A stretch of DNA of 64,000 nt from contig JAISOU010000042.1 of assembly GCA_031275395.1 (NCBI GenBank), positions 1-64,000 of the forward strand, in the 5' to 3' direction. Each line of letters begins with the position of its first letter. Position 1 is the first letter of the stretch. Below, piece after piece: positions 33,128-62,681 of this stretch. The DNA is from Helicobacteraceae bacterium (GTDB taxonomy: Bacteria > Campylobacterota > Campylobacteria > Campylobacterales > SZUA-545). The position numbers were made by a program, and so were the translations under genes. The notes under the pieces are model-generated. The model worked only from the letters and a program-made list of their open reading frames with translations. It ran no database searches and had not been told where the DNA came from.

Positions 33128-34543
33128 TTAGAGATTTTGGCTTATATCTTTTGCCCGCCAATGGGGAAAATGTTTGCGAATAAGCGCGTTTAACTCTATT
33201 TCAAAGGCGTTTGGACGATCGTTTTTTGACGCGAAAGCGATCTCGGCGCTTTGAGCTTTGGCTCTTATCATACCCGCCGCGACGGTCGCGTTACTGAAGC
33301 GATCGATTAGGATAAAGCCGCCTGTGGCGCGGTTTTGGTCGTATGGATCAAAGACAAGCGATCCAAGCGCGGCGATTGATACGCGGCAGATCGAGTTTAG
33401 CGCGATTTGGCTCGCTTCGCGCCGCTTTAAACTATTTACGTCTATAAGATACTTTATCGCGGTTACGTTCGCGGGCATAGTTTTCGTCCCAATTTTGATC
33501 AAGTAGCTTTTGTCTAAACCCAGCGGCTCTTCGCCTAGCCAAACTAGATCGGCTTCAAAATCGCTTGCGATTTGCGGCGGCTCTTCGCCCTCTTTAACGA
33601 TCGTATCGCCGCGGCTAACGTCGATCTCGTCCGTCAAAGTTAGGGTAACCGCCATATCCGTTCTGGCGCTTTGCAGATCGCCGTCGTAGGTAACGATACG
33701 CGCAATGCGCGAAACCGCGCCCGAAGGTAAAACGCGAATCGGATCGCCCGCGCGAACGACTCCCGAAGCGATCGTCCCCGCAAAGCCGCGAAAATGGCGA
33801 TCGGGGCGAACGACAAGCTGAACGGGAAAGCGAAAATCCGCCGTTTTGCCTCGCGCGATCTCGACCGTTTCAAGAAACTCCATTAACGGCGTTCGATCGA
33901 ACCACTTTGTGTTTTCGCTTTTGGAAACGATATTGTCGCCTTTAAGCGCGGAAACGGGGAAAAAGGCGACGCGCTTAATTCCGATCTGCGCGGCAAGCTC
34001 GGCGTAATCGGCGGCGATCGCCTCGTATCGTTCGCGCTCGTAGCCGATCGCGTCCATTTTGTTGATCGCTACCGCGACGCAATCAACGCCGAGCAAATGG
34101 ACGATATAGCTATGCCGTTTTGTTTGCGTCGATACGCCTTTTGTCGCGTCGATCAAGATTATCGCCAGATCGGCGCTGGAAGCCCCCGTAGCCATATTGC
34201 GGGTGTATTGCTCGTGTCCGGGCGTGTCGGCGACGATAAACTTGCGCCTTTTTGTGGAAAAGTAGCGATAGGCGACGTCGATCGTGATCTTTTGCTCCAG
34301 TTCGGCTTGCAAACCGTCTACCAATAACGACAAATCCAGCTCATCGTCTTGCGCTCCCCCCTTTTTAGAACCCTCTTTAAGCGCGGCGATCTGATCTTCA
34401 TAGAGCGTTTTTGAATCGTGCAAAAGCCGTCCGATCAACGTGCTTTTGCCGTCGTCTACGCTACCGCACGCGATAAAGCGCAACAACTCTTTTTGCTCCT
34501 GATCCTTCAAATAGCTTTCGATCTTTTCGGTTTGGCGCGGCAT
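33128..34543 (-). CDS. cysN: Sulfate adenylyltransferase subunit 1 (GTPase)
   Basis: 471 aa. GTPase motifs are GSVDDGKSTLIGRLLHDSK (G1), DTPGHEQYTRN (G3) and NKMD (G4). The EF-Tu-like beta-barrel domains follow. CysN drives sulfate activation to APS by CysD. The start shares its first base with the cysD stop. No CysC kinase domain is fused and no cysC or cysH is in the window. Confidence 0.95.
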   Translation of the reverse strand: MPRQTEKIESYLKDQEQKELLRFIACGSVDDGKSTLIGRLLHDSKTLYEDQIAALKEGSKKGGAQDDELDLSLLVDGLQAELEQKITIDVAYRYFSTKRRKFIVADTPGHEQYTRNMATGASSADLAIILIDATKGVSTQTKRHSYIVHLLGVDCVAVAINKMDAIGYERERYEAIAADYAELAAQIGIKRVAFFPVSALKGDNIVSKSENTKWFDRTPLMEFLETVEIARGKTADFRFPVQLVVRPDRHFRGFAGTIASGVVRAGDPIRVLPSGAVSRIARIVTYDGDLQSARTDMAVTLTLTDEIDVSRGDTIVKEGEEPPQIASDFEADLVWLGEEPLGLDKSYLIKIGTKTMPANVTAIKYLIDVNSLKRREASQIALNSICRVSIAALGSLVFDPYDQNRATGGFILIDRFSNATVAAGMIRAKAQSAEIAFASKNDRPNAFEIELNALIRKHFPHWRAKDISQNL

Positions 34544-35436
34544 TAAAAGTAGCCTTCTATCTTCTTTTTTTCCATCGATCCTGAGGAGTCGCGATCGATA
34601 GCGCGTCCCTGTCTTTCGCTCGTTCGGGCAAGCGCCATCTCCTCGATAATCGCGCTTAAACTATCGGCGGTTGATTCCACCGCGCCCGTAAGCGGATAGC
34701 AACCGAGCGTGCGAAACCGCACCATCTTTTTTTGCGGCTTTTCGCCCTCTTTTAACGGTAGGCGATCGTCGTCTACTAATATCAACATTCCGTCGCGTTC
34801 TACCACTTCGCGCTCTTTGGCAAAATATAGCGGCACGATCGGAATCCGCTCCAGATAGATATATTGCCACACGTCTAGCTCCGTCCAGTTTGAGAGAGGA
34901 AAGACGCGGATCGATTCGCCTTTGTCGCGGCGGGCGTTGTAAAGATTCCATAGTTCGGGACGTTGATTTTTGGGATCCCATCGGTGATTTTTGTCGCGGA
35001 AAGAAAATATCCGCTCTTTAGCGCGGGATTTTTCTTCATCGCGCCTCGCGCCGCCAAAAACCGCGTCGAAGCGATACTTGTTTAACGCCTGTTTTAAGCC
35101 TTCGGTTTTCATTATGTCGGTATGTTTGGCGCTACCGTGTATAAAAGGATTTATGCCTATCTTTCGCCCGTCGGGATTGATATGAACGAGCAGATTTAGC
35201 CCAAGCTCTTTGATTCGCTTATCGCGAAAGGCGATCATCTCTTTGAACTTCCACGTCGTATCTACGTGCAAGAGCGAAAATGGCGGTTTGGCGGGGTAAA
35301 AGGCTTTCAGCGCCAAATGGAGCATAACGGAAGAGTCTTTGCCGATACTGTAGAGCATAGCCGGATTTTCAAACTCGCTTACCGCCTCGCGCATAATAAA
35401 AATGCTTTCGGCTTCGAGCCGCTTAAGATGGGTCAT
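34543..35436 (-). CDS. cysD: Sulfate adenylyltransferase subunit 2
   Basis: 297 aa from ATG 35436 ([20 protein letters not shown]), normal for CysD (about 300). I prefer this start over the in-frame codon at 35490 because homologues start near HLKRLEAE. The PP-loop is [38 protein letters not shown] is the family signature. It transfers AMP from ATP to sulfate, with CysN, in assimilation or sulfation. Confidence 0.95.
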
Positions 35437-35524
35437 TTTTACCTGTATTTCAACCTGCATTGAGCAATGTAAAATCATTGCGTTTCGCAAGCATAGCGAA
35501 AGAAGACTTAGACGGGCTTTGCTA

Positions 35525-36651
35525 TTACTGCCCGATTTTCTTTCTAAACCACTTATACGCGGGCTTTTCGATATATTTATGCGAATAGTGCGAAACGATC
35601 AACGTAACTGTTAACGTAAGAAAACCTCCGATTATTGTTTCGCTTACTCCATAATTTTCTTTTATAACCCAAGTCCAAACAAACCAAATAACAATCCAAT
35701 GATAAACATAAACCGAATAGCTAACGTCGCCAAGCCAACTTTGCCATTTAGCGCAGAACAGCCTACATTGATTTTTAAGTAGAGCGCCTAATAGGATTGT
35801 GACCGAAGCAATAATTTCAATATAAATATCAGCAATTTTGAGGTTAGTATTTTTGTAGGCGAGAATGAACAAAGCAATAATTACGCATAAAAAATATAAA
35901 ATGAGCTTTAGCGCTCTTGTCAATATGATAGACATTCTATATTTTTTCAGCGCGTTGTAAATCTGATAAACAATAATTCCTAGACCAATGCCTAATAGTC
36001 CGTTTCGTGTAAGATGACCTATAAGTCTTACATCTATACCAAAAAATAGGCTATCTTTGCCGCCGTAGAAATAAAACAATAGCGCTAAAACGATTAGAAA
36101 GTTAATAAAATAGGCTTTGTATCTGATTACGCCGTAAAACAGCGTTAAGCCTACCCAAAACTCGACGCCTAACGACCAAAACGCGTCATTTATTCCCCAT
36201 CTATGGCTATTTATACCTTGCAGTAAAAAAACATTCATAAATATTGTATCAATAATGCTATAACCTTTTTCCTCGCGAAAGCTAACATATACCAATGCAT
36301 ATGTAAATATAACCAATATTGAGCAAAACAACATTAATGGATATAACCTTCCAAGCCTTAATAAAGCAAACGATCCTAAGTTGATTTTGTTTTCTTGAAT
36401 CTTTAAGCCGTAAGCGTGGCTCATTACAAATCCAGAAAGAATAAAGAAGATATTGACGCAAAAGCCGCCGTGAATAGTATAGGGAATGCTATGAAGAAGG
36501 ACATAGTGAGCAAATAATACAAATATAGCCAACGATCCTCTTATAAAATCCAGCTCAAGAAATCTATTTGAAGCGGCGTTAGCTAAAGGCGGGCGTTGTT
36601 CGGGCGAAGTAGAGATTGCGGCATAATCGCCGCTTTGAGAGTCGGGCTTTG
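35525..36651 (-). CDS. Acyltransferase-3 domain, 3' half of a phase-variable fusion gene
   Basis: Open frame from the end of the poly-G tract down to 35525. Its start reads [20 protein letters not shown], the usual AT3 opening, then [16 protein letters not shown] and [10 protein letters not shown]. About ten membrane helices follow. The family moves acyl groups to O-antigen, capsule or other surface sugars. There is no ATG in frame: the only in-frame candidate, TTG 36532, would cut off the catalytic-site opening. The upstream membrane/periplasmic ORF ends just past the G14 tract in another frame. With 13 or 16 Gs the two become one 597-598-residue protein, so as sequenced this half is probably not translated. 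Confidence 0.8.
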
Positions 36652-37319
36652 CCCCCCCCCCCCCCGTTAGACGTTATTGCGGGAATAAAGGCGTTCTTGA
36701 TATTGATGGCAAGCGTTTTTAGTCCTGAAAGCCATGTTTTTGGACGGTAGTATGCGCTAGGATAGAAAAGAACTATTACGCAAAGCCAGAAAAGAATGGT
36801 TGGAAAAGGATTTGCGCGGTTTATATCGAGGTTAAAAACTCTTGTTCCGTCGTTCCAATGGTTTTTGCCCTGCAAGAGATGAATCTTTAGCGTTTGCGTT
36901 CCTCTTGGGATCTTGAACTTCGCTATCGCGGGCTTTGACGCGCCTTGATACAGATAAGGGTTTTCGGCTTGCTCGGCGATTAGTTTATCGTCGGCGAATA
37001 CCTGCATAATAACGCCGTCTCTATCCTTTAAGCTCTCGTTCTTATCGACGATAAAACTTAACGATCCGTTATGTTTGAATCTGCGGGCTAGGTTTTGATA
37101 TATCGTTAGCGTCTCAAGATTGACGTCGTCTTTATAATAGGGGTGCATTCTGATTTCATTGTTATTAAAACGTTTGGAGTAACGATCGCCTCCTATGATT
37201 CTGTCGGAATACATAGAGACGATATAAGAGAGTATAAAGATAAACGATATAAGGCGAAGAAGAACGCTAGGGCGTTTAAGAGAGGCGAAAGCGGGTTTGA
37301 AACGTTCTAAAGCGTTCAT
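36579..37319 (-). CDS. Membrane-anchored periplasmic domain, 5' half of a phase-variable fusion gene
   Basis: 246 aa from ATG 37319, preceded by AAGGAA. A first membrane helix (VLLRLISFIFILSYIVSM) is followed by an extracytoplasmic domain of about 130 residues (PRGTQTLKIHLLQGKNHWND) and a second helix (PTILFWLCVIVLFYP). It then enters the poly-G tract, read as five glycines, and stops 31 codons later after an unlike-coding tail ([19 protein letters not shown]). In the ON frame it would continue into the acyltransferase-3 domain. It lies eight bases after the dehydrogenase gene. Confidence 0.75.
   Translation of the reverse strand: MNALERFKPAFASLKRPSVLLRLISFIFILSYIVSMYSDRIIGGDRYSKRFNNNEIRMHPYYKDDVNLETLTIYQNLARRFKHNGSLSFIVDKNESLKDRDGVIMQVFADDKLIAEQAENPYLYQGASKPAIAKFKIPRGTQTLKIHLLQGKNHWNDGTRVFNLDINRANPFPTILFWLCVIVLFYPSAYYRPKTWLSGLKTLAINIKNAFIPAITSNGGGGGKARLSKRRLCRNLYFARTTPAFS
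36652..36665. repeat. Poly-C/poly-G tract of 14, phase-variation switch
   Basis: Fourteen consecutive C on the plus strand (G on the coding minus strand). Such tracts mutate by slipped-strand mispairing and switch surface genes in Campylobacterota. Length 13 or 16 gives one long fused frame; 14 (seen) and 15 give early stops. Confidence 0.9.
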
Positions 37320-37327
37320 ATTTTTCC

Positions 37328-38581
37328 TTATAGTCGTCCGTCGATTTGCGAGCGATCGCAAAGCCCTTTTACGTCGTAGATCGCGCCGTTTGGCTTAACA
37401 AGAGATCTTGGATCGATAGTTTTGAACTCCCTGTGCGCTACGGCGACGACAAGCGCGTCAAATTTTTCGCTCGGCGCCGTTTTGAATATATTAAGATCGC
37501 CGTATTCGCGCTTAACTTCCTCCGCGTCCGCCCAAGGATCAAAGGCGCTTACGGACACGCCAAACTCTTCCAACTCTCGAACAATATCGATTACGCGGGA
37601 GTTGCGAATATCGGGGCAGTTCTCCTTAAAGGTAATTCCTAAAATTAACGCTTTAGCGCCTCTGACCGACGATCCTTTTTTGATAAGTAGCTTAATTGTT
37701 TGCGCGGCTACGTACGCGCCCATTCCGTCGTTTATGCGCCGACCCGATAAGATCACCTGCGGATGATAGCCGACGGATTCGGCTTTGTAGGTTAGATAGT
37801 ACGGATCGACTCCTATGCAGTGTCCGCCGACAAGTCCCGGGCGAAACGGCAGAAAATTCCATTTTGTTCCCGCCGCTTCCAACACTTCGAGCGTATCGAT
37901 TCCAAGCCGTCCAAAAATCAACGCCAATTCGTTTATAAAAGCGATATTTATGTCGCGCTGGCTGTTTTCGATCGCCTTCGCCGCTTCGGCGACTTTTATA
38001 CTGCTCGCCTTATACGTTCCCGCCTCGATAATCTCCTTGTAAAGCGAATCGACCTTATCGGCGATATGCGGCAGGCTTCCGCTGGTAACTTTGCGGATTT
38101 TGCCGACCGTGTGTTCTTTGTCGCCCGGATTTATGCGCTCGGGCGAATAGCCGCAAAAGAAATCGACGTTGAAGGTTAGTCCGCTCTGTTTTTCCAAAAC
38201 GGGGACGCACTCCTCTTCCGTGCAACCCGGATAAACGGTCGATTCATAGACGACAATATCGCCCGTTTTCAAAACGCCGCCGACGGTTTGGCTGGCTTTG
38301 ATTAGCGGCGTTAGATCGGGTTTTTTGTGCGCGTCGATCGGCGTGGGAACGCATACGATAAAGACGTTCGCCGATCTTATCTCCTCGATCGATGAGGTAA
38401 AGGTTAGCTTGCTTGCGGCTTTCAACTGCTCTTTTGTCAGCTCCAGCGTCCGATCAAAACCCTCTTTTAACTCGCTTATACGTTTTTGATTAACGTCGAA
38501 GCCGATCGTTTCTCGTTTTTTGCCAAACTCGGCCGCTAACGGCAACCCAACGTAACCTAACCCAATCAACGCGATTTTCAT
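37328..38581 (-). CDS. UDP-sugar 6-dehydrogenase (TviB/WbpA-like nucleotide sugar dehydrogenase)
   Basis: 417 aa. The NAD-binding motif is [18 protein letters not shown]. The catalytic cysteine is in [40 protein letters not shown] is the central-helix signature. The whole is closest to UDP-N-acetylhexosamine dehydrogenases rather than UDP-glucose dehydrogenases. It would supply a uronic-acid-type sugar for capsule or O-antigen, next to the phase-variable acyltransferase and downstream of lpxB. Confidence 0.88.
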
Positions 38582-52871: not shown

Positions 52872-53825
52872 ATGAAAAAGTTAATGAAATTAACGTTGGC
52901 GATCGGCGCGATCGTTTCGTTTGCGTTTGGAGCGCCCAAAGCGGAGCTACGCATTGGCGCGCAACCTTACCCTCTCTACGCCCCGTTATGGGCGGCGAAA
53001 GAGCTTGGTTATTTGGACGAAGAGTTCAAAAAAGTCGGCGCGACATATACGTGGAACGTCTTTGGCAATGGACCGCTTGTAAATGAAGGCGTGCGCGGCG
53101 GTAGCATAGATTTAGGAATGATGGCCGATCTGCCCGCTATTATCGCTAAATCCGTAGGTTTGGACATTGTGATTTTCTCCAATTTCGGCATTGGGGAAAA
53201 GGCGCTCGCGCTGATCGTGCCTACCAATTCGCCCATTAAAGAGGTTAAGGACATTAAGGGCAAAAAGATCGCCTACGGCAAAGGCACTTACGCTCAACAT
53301 TTATTGGCGATTTTGGTTAATAACAGCGGCTTAAAAAATAGCGACTTCGAGCATATCAATCTCGCCGCCGGCGATATTCCAACCGCGATAAGAACGGGGC
53401 AGATCGACGGCGCGGTAATCTGGGAGCAGTATATTAGTTTGCTCACGGTTACTGGCGACGCGCGAGTGGTAGCCGACGGGACGGGTATTAAGTTGGGCAA
53501 CAATATATCCTATATTAAGAAAGATTTTGCCCAAAAACACCCCGAAGTTTTAAGCGCGTATATTAAAGCGGTAGAGCGCGGTTCGCAGTATATAAACAAC
53601 AACAATAAAGACGCGGCAAAACTGCTATCAAATACTTTCAAAACTCCACCCGAAACGTTGGAATTGGTTTTCTCGCACTTCGAGTATTACGCCAAGTTTC
53701 TACCGCGCGATATTGCGGAGATCGAGAAGGTGAAAAACTACGTCTTAAAAGAAAAAATTATCGCCAGAGACGTAAATATCAACGAGTTCGTTACGACCAA
53801 GTATATCGAAAGGGCGGGTATATGA
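52872..53825 (+). CDS. SsuA-type ABC substrate-binding protein 1
   Basis: 317 aa. Signal peptide KLMKLTLAIGAIVSFAFGAP, then RIGAQPYPLYAPLWAAKELG and GPLVNEGVRGGSIDLGMMAD. The fold is the NrtA/SsuA/TauA class that binds nitrate, sulfonates or taurine. AAAGGAAAG precedes the start. Its stop overlaps the next start by four bases. Blocks identical at DNA level to its two neighbours show recent duplication or conversion. Substrate not readable. Confidence 0.9.
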   Translation: MKKLMKLTLAIGAIVSFAFGAPKAELRIGAQPYPLYAPLWAAKELGYLDEEFKKVGATYTWNVFGNGPLVNEGVRGGSIDLGMMADLPAIIAKSVGLDIVIFSNFGIGEKALALIVPTNSPIKEVKDIKGKKIAYGKGTYAQHLLAILVNNSGLKNSDFEHINLAAGDIPTAIRTGQIDGAVIWEQYISLLTVTGDARVVADGTGIKLGNNISYIKKDFAQKHPEVLSAYIKAVERGSQYINNNNKDAAKLLSNTFKTPPETLELVFSHFEYYAKFLPRDIAEIEKVKNYVLKEKIIARDVNINEFVTTKYIERAGI

Positions 53826-54787
53826 AAGGCGCGTTTATTGCGCGGTTTGCGGCGATTGCGATCGCGCTTTTTGCCTTCGAGCTTTTCGCCGCGCAAAAGC
53901 CGACGCTTCGGATCGCCGCGCAACAGACGCCCGCTTACGCTTCGCTATGGGTCGCAAAAGAGCTTGGCTGGTTCGACGAAGAGTTCAAAAAAGTCGGCGC
54001 GACATATACGTGGAACGTGTTTTCGGCGGGACCGCTTGTCAATGAAGCGTTAAGCGCCGACGGCGCGGACTTGGGCGTTTCGGGCGATCAGCCCGCGATC
54101 ACCGCCAGATCGGCGGGATTGGACGTGATCGTCGTCGCCAATCTTGGATCGGGCGAGCGCACGATTGGGTTAATCGCGCCGCCAAATTCGTCGCTCAAAA
54201 CCGTTAAGGATTTCAAGGGCAAGAAGATCGCTTACGGCAAGGGATCGACGGTGCATCATCTGCTCGATCTGTTGCTCAAGGAAAACGGGTTAAGTAAAAG
54301 CGACGTGGAGCATATCAATCTAGGCGCGGAAGATATTGGCGCGGCGCTTGATCGCGGCGATGTGGACGGCGCATTGACGTGGGATCACACATTAACAAAG
54401 CTGATCTCCGAAGGCCGAGCGCGGCTGATCGCCGACGGCTCTGGCATAAAGCTAACCAACCGCGTCAACTACGTAACGCGATCGTTCGCCGAAAAACACC
54501 CGGAGGTTATCGCGGCTTATATCAGAGCGATCGATCGCGGCGCGCAATGGATTGAAGGCGACAATAAAGATGAAGCGTATAAATTGCTCGCGCCAATTTT
54601 TAAGCTAGATCGCGACACGTTTAGCAAAGTGTTCGCCAACCAAAAGCTCTACACAAAGTTTAGCAAGCGCGACCTCGACGAAATCCGATCGGTCAAAGAT
54701 TATCTGCTAAAAGAGCGATTGATTCGCAACGATATAGATATCGACAAGTTTATAACGACTAAATATATCGAGGCGGCTGGAATATGA
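53822..54787 (+). CDS. SsuA-type ABC substrate-binding protein 2
   Basis: 321 aa. Signal peptide ends near FELFAAQK. RIAAQQTPAYASLWVAKELG and KKIAYGKGSTVHHLLDLLL parallel protein 1. Pocket-region differences (QQTPAY versus QPYPLY; VSGDQPAITARSAGLDVIVV; DGALTWDHTL versus DGAVIWEQYI) suggest a different ligand. A 44-base block (53975-54018) is identical to 53016-53059 in protein 1. Coupled to both neighbours by ATGA overlaps. Confidence 0.9.
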   Translation: MKGAFIARFAAIAIALFAFELFAAQKPTLRIAAQQTPAYASLWVAKELGWFDEEFKKVGATYTWNVFSAGPLVNEALSADGADLGVSGDQPAITARSAGLDVIVVANLGSGERTIGLIAPPNSSLKTVKDFKGKKIAYGKGSTVHHLLDLLLKENGLSKSDVEHINLGAEDIGAALDRGDVDGALTWDHTLTKLISEGRARLIADGSGIKLTNRVNYVTRSFAEKHPEVIAAYIRAIDRGAQWIEGDNKDEAYKLLAPIFKLDRDTFSKVFANQKLYTKFSKRDLDEIRSVKDYLLKERLIRNDIDIDKFITTKYIEAAGI

Positions 54788-55740
54788 GGCGGCTAGGTTG
54801 GTTTGCCGCGCTCGCGACGTTACTATTTGCGCCTAATCTATTTGGCGCCGAAAAGCCGACGCTTCGGATCGCGACGACGCCATATCCGCTTCACGCGCCG
54901 CTATGGATCGCAAAAGAGCTTGGCTATCTGGACGAGGAACTAAACAAAGTCGGCGCGACATATACGTGGAGCGTTTTTGAAAATGGTCCGCTAATTAACG
55001 AGGCGGCAAGAAGCGGCGCTATTGATACGGCGATTTTAGGCGATCAGCCCGCGATCATCGCTAAATCGGTCGGGCTGGACATTGTGGCGTTTGCCAATAT
55101 CGCGGCGGGCGAAAAGGCGATGGCGTTGATCGCGCCTACCAATTCGCCCATTAAAGAGGTTAAGGACATTAAGGGCAAAAAGATCGCCTACGGCAAGGGA
55201 ACTTACGTACAACATCTGCTCGTTTTGTTGTTGGAAAAACACGGCGTAAAAAGCGACGACTTCGAGCATATCAATCTAAGCGTCAATGATATTCCGATCG
55301 CGTTGGAAAACCGCCAGATCGACGGCGCGCTAATATGGGAACATTACATCAGCTTGCTGACGCTTTCGGGCAAAGCGCGGGTGATAGCCGACGGCGAGGG
55401 GATAAAGCAAGGCAACATTATCGCCTACGCGCGAAGCGATTACGCCAAAGCGCATCCGCAAGTTTTGGCGGCGTATATACGCGCTCTTGATCGCGGCGCG
55501 CGCTATGTCGGCGATCATCCAAACGAAGCCGCCGCGCTACTTGCGCCAGCGTATAAGTTGCCGCTTGACGTAACCGCCGCGTCGTTAAAACGAATGGATT
55601 TTCACATCAAGTTCGCGCCGCGCGATCTAACGGAGATCGCAAGCGTACAGGCTTACTTGCTAAAAGAGAAAATTATCCGCAAAGAAGTTGATATTGCCGA
55701 CTTTGTTAGCAAGAAATATATTGATTTGGCGGGGATTTAG
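54784..55740 (+). CDS. SsuA-type ABC substrate-binding protein 3
   Basis: 318 aa with a signal peptide (WFAALATLLFAPNLFGAE). RIATTPYPLHAPLWIAKELG and DGALIWEHYISLLTLSG resemble protein 1 more than protein 2. A 63-base block (55134-55196) is identical to 53219-53281 in protein 1. Three tandem binding proteins with one permease and one ATPase imply several related ligands served by one importer. Confidence 0.9.
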   Translation: MRRLGWFAALATLLFAPNLFGAEKPTLRIATTPYPLHAPLWIAKELGYLDEELNKVGATYTWSVFENGPLINEAARSGAIDTAILGDQPAIIAKSVGLDIVAFANIAAGEKAMALIAPTNSPIKEVKDIKGKKIAYGKGTYVQHLLVLLLEKHGVKSDDFEHINLSVNDIPIALENRQIDGALIWEHYISLLTLSGKARVIADGEGIKQGNIIAYARSDYAKAHPQVLAAYIRALDRGARYVGDHPNEAAALLAPAYKLPLDVTAASLKRMDFHIKFAPRDLTEIASVQAYLLKEKIIRKEVDIADFVSKKYIDLAGI

Positions 55741-59662: not shown

Positions 59663-60154
59663 ATGAACGATAAAAAACCGCGCGAAGCGGCGCTACTAAA
59701 AGAGGCGCTCTCGCGCTTTAACGATGAAGGGGCGATCAGAGTACTTACGACGCTAGACGAAAACGGCGCGCCGCACCCCGTATGTAAAGGATCTTTGCGT
59801 TGGAACGGCGAGACGATCGAATCATGGGAGATTTTGGAAAGTTCGGAAACCAACCGCAATCTGACGCGCGCGATCTGGTTTGATAAGCCGATCGCGATCT
59901 TGCTGATCACGTCCGATAAAAAGGCGTACAAGTTTTCCGTAAAAGTCTCGCGCAACATTATTGCGGGCAAAGCCTTTACCCGCGAATACGAGGCGGCGCA
60001 GAAGCGCTTCAACGGACGCGGGATCGCGGGCGTGTGGCGCTATGAAATAGTGAGCGTCAAAGACGAAACGCCCGCCGCGCGAATCGACGAGGAACAAAGG
60101 GCGCGTCCATACTTTACTCATCTTGATCAACTTGCCAAAAGGGATAGCCAATGA
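59663..60154 (+). CDS. PNPOx-like FMN-binding split-barrel protein
   Basis: 163 aa. AIRVLTTLDENGAPHPVCKG, NRNLTRAIWFDKPIAILLIT, DKKAYKFSVKVSRNIIAGKA and WRYEIVSVKDETPAARIDEE match the pyridoxamine-5'-phosphate-oxidase-like beta barrel, which binds FMN or related flavins. Its stop overlaps the radical SAM start (ATGA), so the two are likely functional partners. It could supply reduced flavin to SsuD, or act on the radical SAM product. Confidence 0.75.
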   Translation: MNDKKPREAALLKEALSRFNDEGAIRVLTTLDENGAPHPVCKGSLRWNGETIESWEILESSETNRNLTRAIWFDKPIAILLITSDKKAYKFSVKVSRNIIAGKAFTREYEAAQKRFNGRGIAGVWRYEIVSVKDETPAARIDEEQRARPYFTHLDQLAKRDSQ

Positions 60155-61398
60155 GCGTGAAACGAAGCGAATTAACCTTTGACGAGGTGGCGGCGAAATA
60201 CCCCAATTTTCCTCGTATGCCGCTACTGAAAATCGATATTCAACGGCGCGGCGCGGCATATACGGACGCGGCGTTGGAGCTGTTTGATCCCGCCGTTCAT
60301 CAAGTCGGCGGCGCGCATATTTTTGGCAACCGCGACGGCAAAATTACGGGACGCCCCGAAGGTATGCTACTGCGCGACGGTACGTCGCTGGTCGTTACTA
60401 CGGCGCCGATCGAGCAAAATCCGTACCTTATCGACGCGATCGACGGCAAACTTTACGCCGTCGATCAGGGCAAACCGATCGAGCGCGTATGGTACTGGGA
60501 AAAACCCGACTATTACGACAAAAAAACAAGCGGCGGGATCGCAATGCAAAACGTGATCAGCGCGCGACCGCAACGACTATCGCTCTCGCCGTACCGTTAC
60601 TGCTGGTTTTGGAGCGAGGAAGGCGGCGGAGGGTGTAAGTTCTGCGATATTGTGAATAATCTGAAGCAGGCAAAAGACGAGATCGGTATGCCGACCAGAC
60701 TTAATCCCGCCGACATTAAAGAAACGTTAAGCGAGGCGCTAAAGGAGCGCGGGCGATTTACGGCGATCTGCGTTACGGGCGGTAGCGATATTCGCGGCGA
60801 TAGTCCGTTCGATAAAGAAGCGGATTATTACATCGAAACGTTGCAAACGGCGGGCGATTGTTTTAACGTACCCAAAATCCCTATTCAGCTAATCTGCACG
60901 GCGATGAAAAAAGATCAGCTCAAACGCATTTACGATAACACGCCCGTCTCTAGCGTTACGATGGATATAGAGGTGTTAGACGAGGAACAATTTAACCGCG
61001 TTTGTCCTGGCAAAGCGAAGTGGATCGGCTACAAAGAAATGAAACGCCGACTATTCGACGCGGTCGAGATATTTGGCGAAAACCGCGTGAATACGGGAAC
61101 GGTGGGCGGCGTGGAACTTACCGAGCCTACGCGCTTTCGCGACGAGAACGAGGCGTTAGAGCAGTACCTAAGCGAAGCGGACGACTTGGCTAATCACGGC
61201 GTGAGCGTTATACACTGCGTGTGGAATCCCAATCCTGGATCGGCGTACGCTGGAAGGCGCAACGGATCGCTAGAGTATTACGTTCGGCTCGCGCAAGGCT
61301 TACAGGAGATTCGGCGGCGGCATAACTTGCTAATCGACTTTGACGACTACCGCCGTTGCGGCAACCACCCCGATACCGATTTGGCGCGGGTTTTTTAG
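60151..61398 (+). CDS. Radical SAM protein A with stretched cysteine motif
   Basis: 415 aa. YRYCWFWSEEGGGGCKFCDI places cysteines at residues 151, 162 and 165: CX10CX2C, with the last two as in classical CxxxCxxC and the first moved away by a Gly-rich insert. CVTGGSDIRGDSP resembles a SAM-binding loop. The C-terminus has GSLEYYVRLAQGLQEIRRRH and FDDYRRCGNHPDTDLARVF. The N-terminal 150 residues are unassigned. It is paralogous to the next gene. Reaction unknown. Confidence 0.7.
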   Translation: MSVKRSELTFDEVAAKYPNFPRMPLLKIDIQRRGAAYTDAALELFDPAVHQVGGAHIFGNRDGKITGRPEGMLLRDGTSLVVTTAPIEQNPYLIDAIDGKLYAVDQGKPIERVWYWEKPDYYDKKTSGGIAMQNVISARPQRLSLSPYRYCWFWSEEGGGGCKFCDIVNNLKQAKDEIGMPTRLNPADIKETLSEALKERGRFTAICVTGGSDIRGDSPFDKEADYYIETLQTAGDCFNVPKIPIQLICTAMKKDQLKRIYDNTPVSSVTMDIEVLDEEQFNRVCPGKAKWIGYKEMKRRLFDAVEIFGENRVNTGTVGGVELTEPTRFRDENEALEQYLSEADDLANHGVSVIHCVWNPNPGSAYAGRRNGSLEYYVRLAQGLQEIRRRHNLLIDFDDYRRCGNHPDTDLARVF

Positions 61399-61421
61399 CC
61401 GCCTAAAGCAAAGGATAACGT

Positions 61422-62681
61422 ATGAACGTCAAGAAACGCGAATTAACCTTTGACGAAGTCGCGGCGAAATACCCCGATTTTCCCCGCTTTGTATTGCTGA
61501 AAACCGACGCGCATCGACGAGGCGTGGCATATACAAACGCCGCGCTCTCCGCGTTTGATCCTGCGTTGCACCAAAACTTTGGCACGCACCTATTTGGCTC
61601 TCGCGACGGTAAAATCGACAAACGCCCCGAAGCGCTTACTATGCGCGACGGCACGTCGATCATCGGTTTGCCTACGCCGATCGAAAATAATCCGTATGTG
61701 GTCGATCTAATCGACGAACGGCTGTTTATAACCGATAACGGCGAGCCGATCGAAGAGGTTTTTTATTGGGAAAAGCCCGACTATTACGACAAGCGCACCA
61801 AAAACGGCGCTATTATGCAAAATGTGGCGAGCGCGCGCCCTCAAAGACTTTACGTTATTCCAAATCGCTACTGCCATTTTTGGACGGCGGACGAAGGCGG
61901 CGGCGGGTGTAAGTTCTGCGACATTGTAAATAACCTGAAAGCTCAACGCGAAGAGATTGAAATGCAAACGCGCATAAAGATCGACGACGTGCGCGAAACG
62001 ATCGGCGAGGCGCTTAAAGAAAAGGGCAGATACGCGGCGATCTGTTTATCGAGCGGTAGCGATTTTCACGGCGAAAAGCCGTTTGACAAAGAGGCGCGGT
62101 TTTATATAGACGTGTTGCAGGCGATCGGCGAGAGCTTTAATACGCCTAAGTTTCCATCGCAACTAATCTGTACCGCGCTGACTAAAGAACAGCTAAAACA
62201 ACTATACGATAACACGGGCATTTCTAGTCTAACGTGCAATATCGAGGCGTTGAGCGAAGATCTGTTTAACCGTTACTGTCCGGGCAAAGCAAAATGGATC
62301 GGTTACAAGGAGTGGAAAAAGCGGCTTTTTGACGCGGTGGAAATCTTTGGTCCAAACCGCGTGAATACGGGTTTTGTGGCGGGCGTAGAGCTTGCGCGTC
62401 CGTATGGAGTTAAAAGCGAAGAGGAAGGTTTGGAGCTTATCCTGAACGAAGCGGAGGATTTTGCGCGGCACGGCGTGAGCGTGATCTATATGGTTTGGCA
62501 ACCGCGACCGGGTAGCGAGCTTGGCAACCTTCATAATCAAACAAGCGGATCGCTGGAGTATTACGTTCGGCTCGCGCAAGGCTTGCAGGAGATTAGGCGG
62601 CGGCATAACTTGCTAATCGACTTTGACGACTACCGCCGTTGCGGCAACCACCCCGATACCGATTTGGCGCGGGTTTTTTAG
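61422..62681 (+). CDS. Radical SAM protein B with stretched cysteine motif
   Basis: 419 aa, similar to protein A over its whole length. Cysteines are at residues 151, 163 and 166 (NRYCHFWTADEGGGGCKFCD): CX11CX2C. ICLSSGSDFHGEKPFDKEA aligns with the SAM-loop region of A. The last 135 bases differ from gene A at only three positions. Tandem retention suggests either a heteromeric enzyme or two related substrates. Confidence 0.7.
   Translation: MNVKKRELTFDEVAAKYPDFPRFVLLKTDAHRRGVAYTNAALSAFDPALHQNFGTHLFGSRDGKIDKRPEALTMRDGTSIIGLPTPIENNPYVVDLIDERLFITDNGEPIEEVFYWEKPDYYDKRTKNGAIMQNVASARPQRLYVIPNRYCHFWTADEGGGGCKFCDIVNNLKAQREEIEMQTRIKIDDVRETIGEALKEKGRYAAICLSSGSDFHGEKPFDKEARFYIDVLQAIGESFNTPKFPSQLICTALTKEQLKQLYDNTGISSLTCNIEALSEDLFNRYCPGKAKWIGYKEWKKRLFDAVEIFGPNRVNTGFVAGVELARPYGVKSEEEGLELILNEAEDFARHGVSVIYMVWQPRPGSELGNLHNQTSGSLEYYVRLAQGLQEIRRRHNLLIDFDDYRRCGNHPDTDLARVF

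Follow-up and report, generated by a model that had tools for sequence, protein, structure and literature searches.

A split acyltransferase gene and its reading frames

On the minus strand of the window, that is, the whole 64,000-nucleotide stretch of DNA analysed here from the Helicobacteraceae bacterium genome G000, an open reading frame for a two-helix protein runs into a pure poly-G tract and is followed, in a shifted frame, by an acyltransferase-3 (AT3, Acyl_transf_3) domain. The front of this unit (36666..37319, minus strand), named here the N-module, consists of a cytosolic leader, a first transmembrane segment (TM1), a predicted periplasmic domain, a second transmembrane segment (TM2) and a positively charged linker, as delimited by the open reading frame, hydropathy, the orthologue in the related genome G003 and dN/dS. 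Upstream lies a gene of the UDP-glucose/GDP-mannose dehydrogenase family (37328..38581, minus strand; a UDP-sugar dehydrogenase by Pfam), which is conserved as the neighbour in G003, in G006 and at the empty site of G005, and the gap of only 8 bases between its stop codon and the ATG of the N-module (37320..37327, minus strand), with the ribosome-binding-like AAGGAAAAAT, suggests that the two are carried on one transcript. Downstream follow the CysD-like and CysN-like sulfate adenylyltransferase subunits assigned by Pfam (33128..35490, minus strand, with their boundary at 34543), the start of CysD probably being the ATG near 35436. A scan for promoters and terminators gave sites no commoner than those found in shuffled sequences.

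The tract itself (36652..36665, minus strand) contains exactly 14 G by our recount of the letters, in agreement with the original prediction, and it is the sole run of at least 8 G in the window; the expected number of such runs is 0.19 per window, and this rules out a chance origin. The ATG at 37319 opens 218 codons before the 14 G are reached, and in this 14-G state, translation would continue through an out-of-frame tail (36579..36651, minus strand, from the reading of the open reading frame) up to the stop at 36579, giving a product of 246 aa. This stop lies 23 codons past the end of the tract and 28 past its beginning, and not 31 codons on as first reported. Our frame recount gives products of 596, 597, 598 and 599 aa with tracts of 10, 13, 16 and 19 G, respectively, and of 243–248 aa with all the other lengths between 9 and 20 G (245 aa with 15 G), and the earlier arithmetic of 597 or 598 residues at 13 or 16 G, with termination at 14 and 15 G, is therefore correct. 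In the open states, the tract encodes a Gly4–Gly6 linker.

The AT3 half, including a short linker, occupies 35525..36651 on the minus strand, and its frame matches PF01757 from end to end (E=2.2e-22, profile positions 3–325 of 326). As had been predicted, this frame has no ATG of its own; the first start listed in it is the TTG at 36532, and because this codon sits inside the conserved FLELDFIRG block, the AT3 half has no separate start from which the complete domain could be made. A separate AT3 gene is ruled out, since no start precedes this block in the window. The AT3 half keeps R-x10-H in TMH1 and RLGR, an RxxR motif, in TMH3, and R-x10-H and RxxR, which are present in six of the six copies, are both required for OafA activity (PMC7448272). 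An SGNH domain was not matched in the window protein, the chain of which ends directly after AT3, and hence it does not belong to the AT3-SGNH subclass.

In the N-module, hydropathy places the transmembrane segments at residues 18–36 and 172–190, which bears out the two membrane helices originally seen in the front reading frame, and the predicted periplasmic domain between TM1 and TM2 has about 130 residues (about 43–171). The net charge is +3 in the leader and +4 in the linker after TM2, and therefore, following the positive-inside rule, the tract would be placed in the cytosol just before TMH1 of AT3. No Pfam or NCBIfam family matches the N-module. Its comparison with 2ygl (CBM51) gave a weak whole-chain match (E=0.0028), with single stretches each non-significant, and an AlphaFold model built on 4 sequences had low confidence (pLDDT 49.8); a CBM51/NPCBM-like glycan-binding domain, as hinted at by this weak sequence match, is only a lead. 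Relatives of the N-module were found in 6 of the 60 genomes searched, G000 included, all in the window's own genus, and a profile search of the class found it in 3 of 397 genomes, again including G000 and only in this genus. More distant relatives of the module (22–29% identity) head other large membrane proteins.

The unit and its poly-G tract in related genomes

The relatives named here are metagenome-assembled genomes (MAGs) called 'Helicobacteraceae bacterium', which may come from termite guts. In G003, the unit is found at the same site, with the same neighbours and the same cysDN order, and it is likewise split by frame, with 15 G and an ON state only at 13, 16 or 19 G; its N-module is 78% identical to that of the window, with a dN/dS of 0.12 for the pair. 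In G006, the same site keeps 14 G and the AT3, which would be ON when the number of G's is 1 mod 3, as in G003, with TM1, the periplasmic domain and TM2 gone. The residual linker of G006 matches the N-module linker beyond all of 2000 protein shuffles and 500 DNA shuffles, and the resemblance of its extreme N-terminus to that of the N-module (61 of 2000 shuffles) is suggestive only. The orthologous tracts lie at the same place, with 14 (G000), 15 (G003) and 14 G (G006), these being assembled lengths, which in MAGs may be off by a base or two. In G001, a leader of 17–18 residues is followed by 14 G and AT3, with ON at 12 or 15 G. In G005 and G013, cysD and cysN come directly after the dehydrogenase, and therefore the AT3 unit is absent at this site. 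Among all these homologues, we found no pair of genes with their own starts that would speak against the original prediction, the G003 copy with its 15 G also needing 13 or 16 G to be joined.

We also found a second locus in pieces. Its module side is on contig 25 of G000 and contig 97 of G005, which have 93% identical flanks and end at or near the tract, and its AT3 side is on contig 65 of G000 and contig 51 of G005, which are 84% identical and begin at the G's. Given that contigs 25 and 97 are syntenic up to the end of the module, and contigs 65 and 51 from the tract on, all of them breaking at or near the tract, G000 and G005 very probably each hold a second tract-linked N-module/AT3 unit, the contigs being joined here on the strength of this synteny.

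On contig 49 of G005 (L088 4899–7043, plus strand), the N-module continues in the same frame through a leftover GGGGG into an unrelated multi-TM protein, the chain having 715 aa, and this suggests an exchange of the module at the tract site. The idea that homologues might carry a fixed in-frame fusion thus holds in part: the N-module is here fused without a long tract, but its partner differs from AT3. This partner had no match in Pfam, NCBIfam or the PDB; it may be GT-C-like, a guess for which the only pointer in these genomes is the GtrA/GtrB-like neighbours of the more distant module proteins.

Pairwise dN/dS was 0.12–0.26 for the N-module and 0.16–0.29 for AT3 where calculable, one AT3 pair being saturated. 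No internal stops were found in the AT3 of six copies, and the contig-65 paralogue of G000 preserves, in the frame of AT3, the linker that leads from the tract to this domain, which is what one would predict if ribosomes read through the tract. As judged by these ratios and frames, both halves are under purifying selection, i.e., they are maintained.

Tracts of at least 9 G gave 61 matches in G000 and range from 26 to 61 per genome in the genus and from 26 to 53 in the sister genus, with 0–4 in most families of the order and 14–64 in a few other families. This genus of uncultured Campylobacterota is as tract-rich as its richest relatives in the same order. Internal tracts of G000 likewise interrupt the genes of TonB receptors, a sulfatase, a methyltransferase, a subtilase and a YrbL-like gene, and, as read from the assembly, the tract set of G000 is a classical phasome.

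Some other tracts deserve mention in their own right. In L065 (2560–2573, plus strand), 14 G lie between two matching halves of a YrbL-like (PF10707) protein and leave them out of frame with each other. In L044 (2541–2554, plus strand), the leader MFQRSLNLSN and 14 G stand before a TM-anchored protein with GLUG repeats, the TM segment of which resembles TM1 of the N-module, and this may be another tract-linked module. Contigs 21, 31, 46, 53, 72 and 95 of G000 (L050, L056, L059, L062, L074 and L086) have at their ends G runs of great length (up to 70 G) or runs in which G and C are mixed; errors of sequencing or assembly at genuine tracts are the probable cause. Tract lengths at contig ends are for this reason not trusted, and tracts there with mixed G and C were given no weight.

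A probable phase-variable gene and the competing explanations

The architecture, the reading frames, the conservation of the tract in relatives, the selection on both halves and the catalytic motifs, all of them read from sequence, make it likely in our judgement that the locus is one translationally phase-variable gene for a two-part inner-membrane AT3 of an envelope glycan. Through slipped-strand mispairing, the tract at the domain joint would gain or lose G's and so shift the frame. With 13, 16 or 19 G, the ribosome would pass the joint as a cytosolic poly-glycine linker, and the N-module plus AT3 would be made as one chain of 597–599 aa, while with 14 or 15 G it would stop soon past the tract, leaving the N-module alone, a membrane protein of two helices and a predicted periplasmic domain. 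Because AT3 proteins carry acyl groups across the inner membrane, the surface glycan would most likely be O-acylated in the ON state and bare in the OFF state, and the N-module may position AT3 or bind the acceptor glycan. As a possible side effect of the OFF state, polarity from roughly 1 kb of mRNA left untranslated could lower cysDN expression. All assembled units in which an N-module or a leader precedes AT3 are OFF, and with a chance of 2/3 for each to be so, this is uninformative because the cases are so few.

An alternative to such an on/off gene is that both isoforms work, the module-only form being itself active, for instance as a glycan-binding or dominant-negative partner. The OFF product is indeed a complete two-TM protein, the N-module family also heads other membrane enzymes, and the relatives also have poly-G between AT3 and SGNH domains. 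However, nothing points to an activity of the module alone, and G006 lacks the two-TM module and yet keeps the switch and the AT3, with G001 having a short leader only, and therefore the switch would work on AT3 without the module; we regard two working isoforms as unlikely. If the shorter products were active, of course, phase variation would switch domain composition instead of on/off.

Phase variation of a single gene must also be weighed against a fixed tract from which transcriptional slippage or ribosomal frameshifting would deliver both products at once from the same DNA. Long homopolymers can cause polymerase slippage, which a run of 14 G would permit, and either product, with or without AT3, would make a plausible protein. 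We find this improbable, given that the orthologous tracts vary (14, 15, 14) while all being long, as expected for contingency loci, and that the abundance of tracts in surface genes across the genus fits phase variation; nor does the sequence at first sight hint at a frameshift stimulator.

It is also to be considered whether the true tract could be fixed in frame, at 13 or 16 G, and the gene a constant fusion without switching, with the 14 G being an assembly error. The window does come from a metagenome-assembled genome, in which several contig-end tracts show implausible G/C runs (e.g., contigs 21, 31, 46 and 95), but independent assemblies also show a long run here, of 15 and 14 G, with flanks about 20% different, tracts of at least 9 G are enriched genus-wide, and pure G runs of such length are known to be unstable, which makes a fixed length unlikely, and we consequently give such an error a very low probability. 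A decayed gene, in which only the N-module is still intact and the AT3 half has become a pseudogene, would agree with all assembled units of the N-module/AT3 type being out of frame, but it is largely refuted, and was set aside, on the AT3 dN/dS of 0.16–0.29, the absence of internal stops in six copies, the intact catalytic motifs and the contig-65 linker kept in the AT3 frame.

Known switches and poly-G at domain joints

The phase-variable unit proposed here resembles Neisseria PglI, an AT3-SGNH pilin-glycan O-acetyltransferase whose gene has a genic G(9–15) tract (PMC5953494; PMC9558356), both being AT3 enzymes with poly-G inside the gene, which makes translation phase-variable in PglI and is predicted to do so here. 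In contrast to the C-terminal SGNH of PglI, the extra module of the window unit is N-terminal, unrelated to SGNH and restricted to the genus. H. influenzae OafA and N. meningitidis Lot3 are phase-variable LOS O-acetyltransferases (PMC9558356; PMC3526765) that share with our unit an AT3 protein, on/off expression and surface-glycan modification, as predicted for the window unit; OafA, however, is one of the LOS genes that carry tetranucleotide repeats in H. influenzae, and an N-terminal two-TM periplasmic module appears in the descriptions of neither OafA nor Lot3. For HCAN_0660/0661 of Helicobacter canadensis, a merging of two coding sequences controlled by tract length was proposed (PMC2823697), in which, as in our case, the poly-G near the end of the first coding sequence would set its merging with the next. 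There, both proteins are hypothetical and the downstream one, of 82 aa, has a separate gene, whereas in the window the part to be joined would be an enzyme domain that lacks a start of its own. The Campylobacter phasome likewise includes numerous poly-G tracts inside genes for surface modification (PMC6321876), mostly of 9–10 G there and mostly of 12–20 G in the genomes compared here, and an AT3 unit was not found in the text of that survey.

Reviews describe AT3 fusions at the C-terminus, namely SGNH and racemase (PMC9558356), and no description of an N-terminal two-TM periplasmic module on AT3 was found in the literature. The novelty originally claimed has to be narrowed accordingly: the N-module/AT3 pairing was not found described, but phase-variable AT3 with genic poly-G is known from pglI, and the proposed phase-variable fusion is new for this pair of halves, but merging by poly-G had already been proposed for H. 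canadensis. What the locus adds is an AT3 architecture, with an N-terminal two-TM periplasmic module, under predicted poly-G control, the principle of the switch being already known.

Poly-G is also found at the other border of AT3. In the AT3-SGNH proteins of G006, G001 and G014, tracts lie at the end of TMH11, between AT3 (PF01757) and SGNH (PF19040), with 14 G in frame in G006 (L124 2000–2013, minus strand), 17 G out of frame in G001 (L125 2587–2603, minus strand) and 8 G out of frame in G014 (L126 2209–2216, plus strand), all coordinates being those on the strand read. The AT3-SGNH of G011 (L127) has at the same place a non-repetitive Gly-rich GGVGG without a tract. Poly-G at the border of the AT3 module therefore recurs in the relatives, and G-runs are present or residual at the borders of three kinds of fusion, N-module/AT3, AT3/SGNH and N-module/multi-TM protein. 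This suggests that contingency tracts may arise in glycine linkers between domains, a simple and testable placement rule. It is a tentative and rather doubtful extension that the poly-G at the envelope-enzyme joints of this lineage might act as switches attaching and detaching domains, with the short product working, and also as joints for swapping modules; poly-G would then be placed at domain joints because a glycine linker tolerates changes in length, and for the swapping one can cite the GGGGG fusion in G005 and the removal of the module as a unit in G006.

Elsewhere on the plus strand of the window, there are three tandem paralogous periplasmic binding proteins and, behind them, single genes for a permease and an ATPase (52872–55740), and there are two tandem paralogues with radical-SAM-like cysteine motifs and identical last residues (60151–62681).
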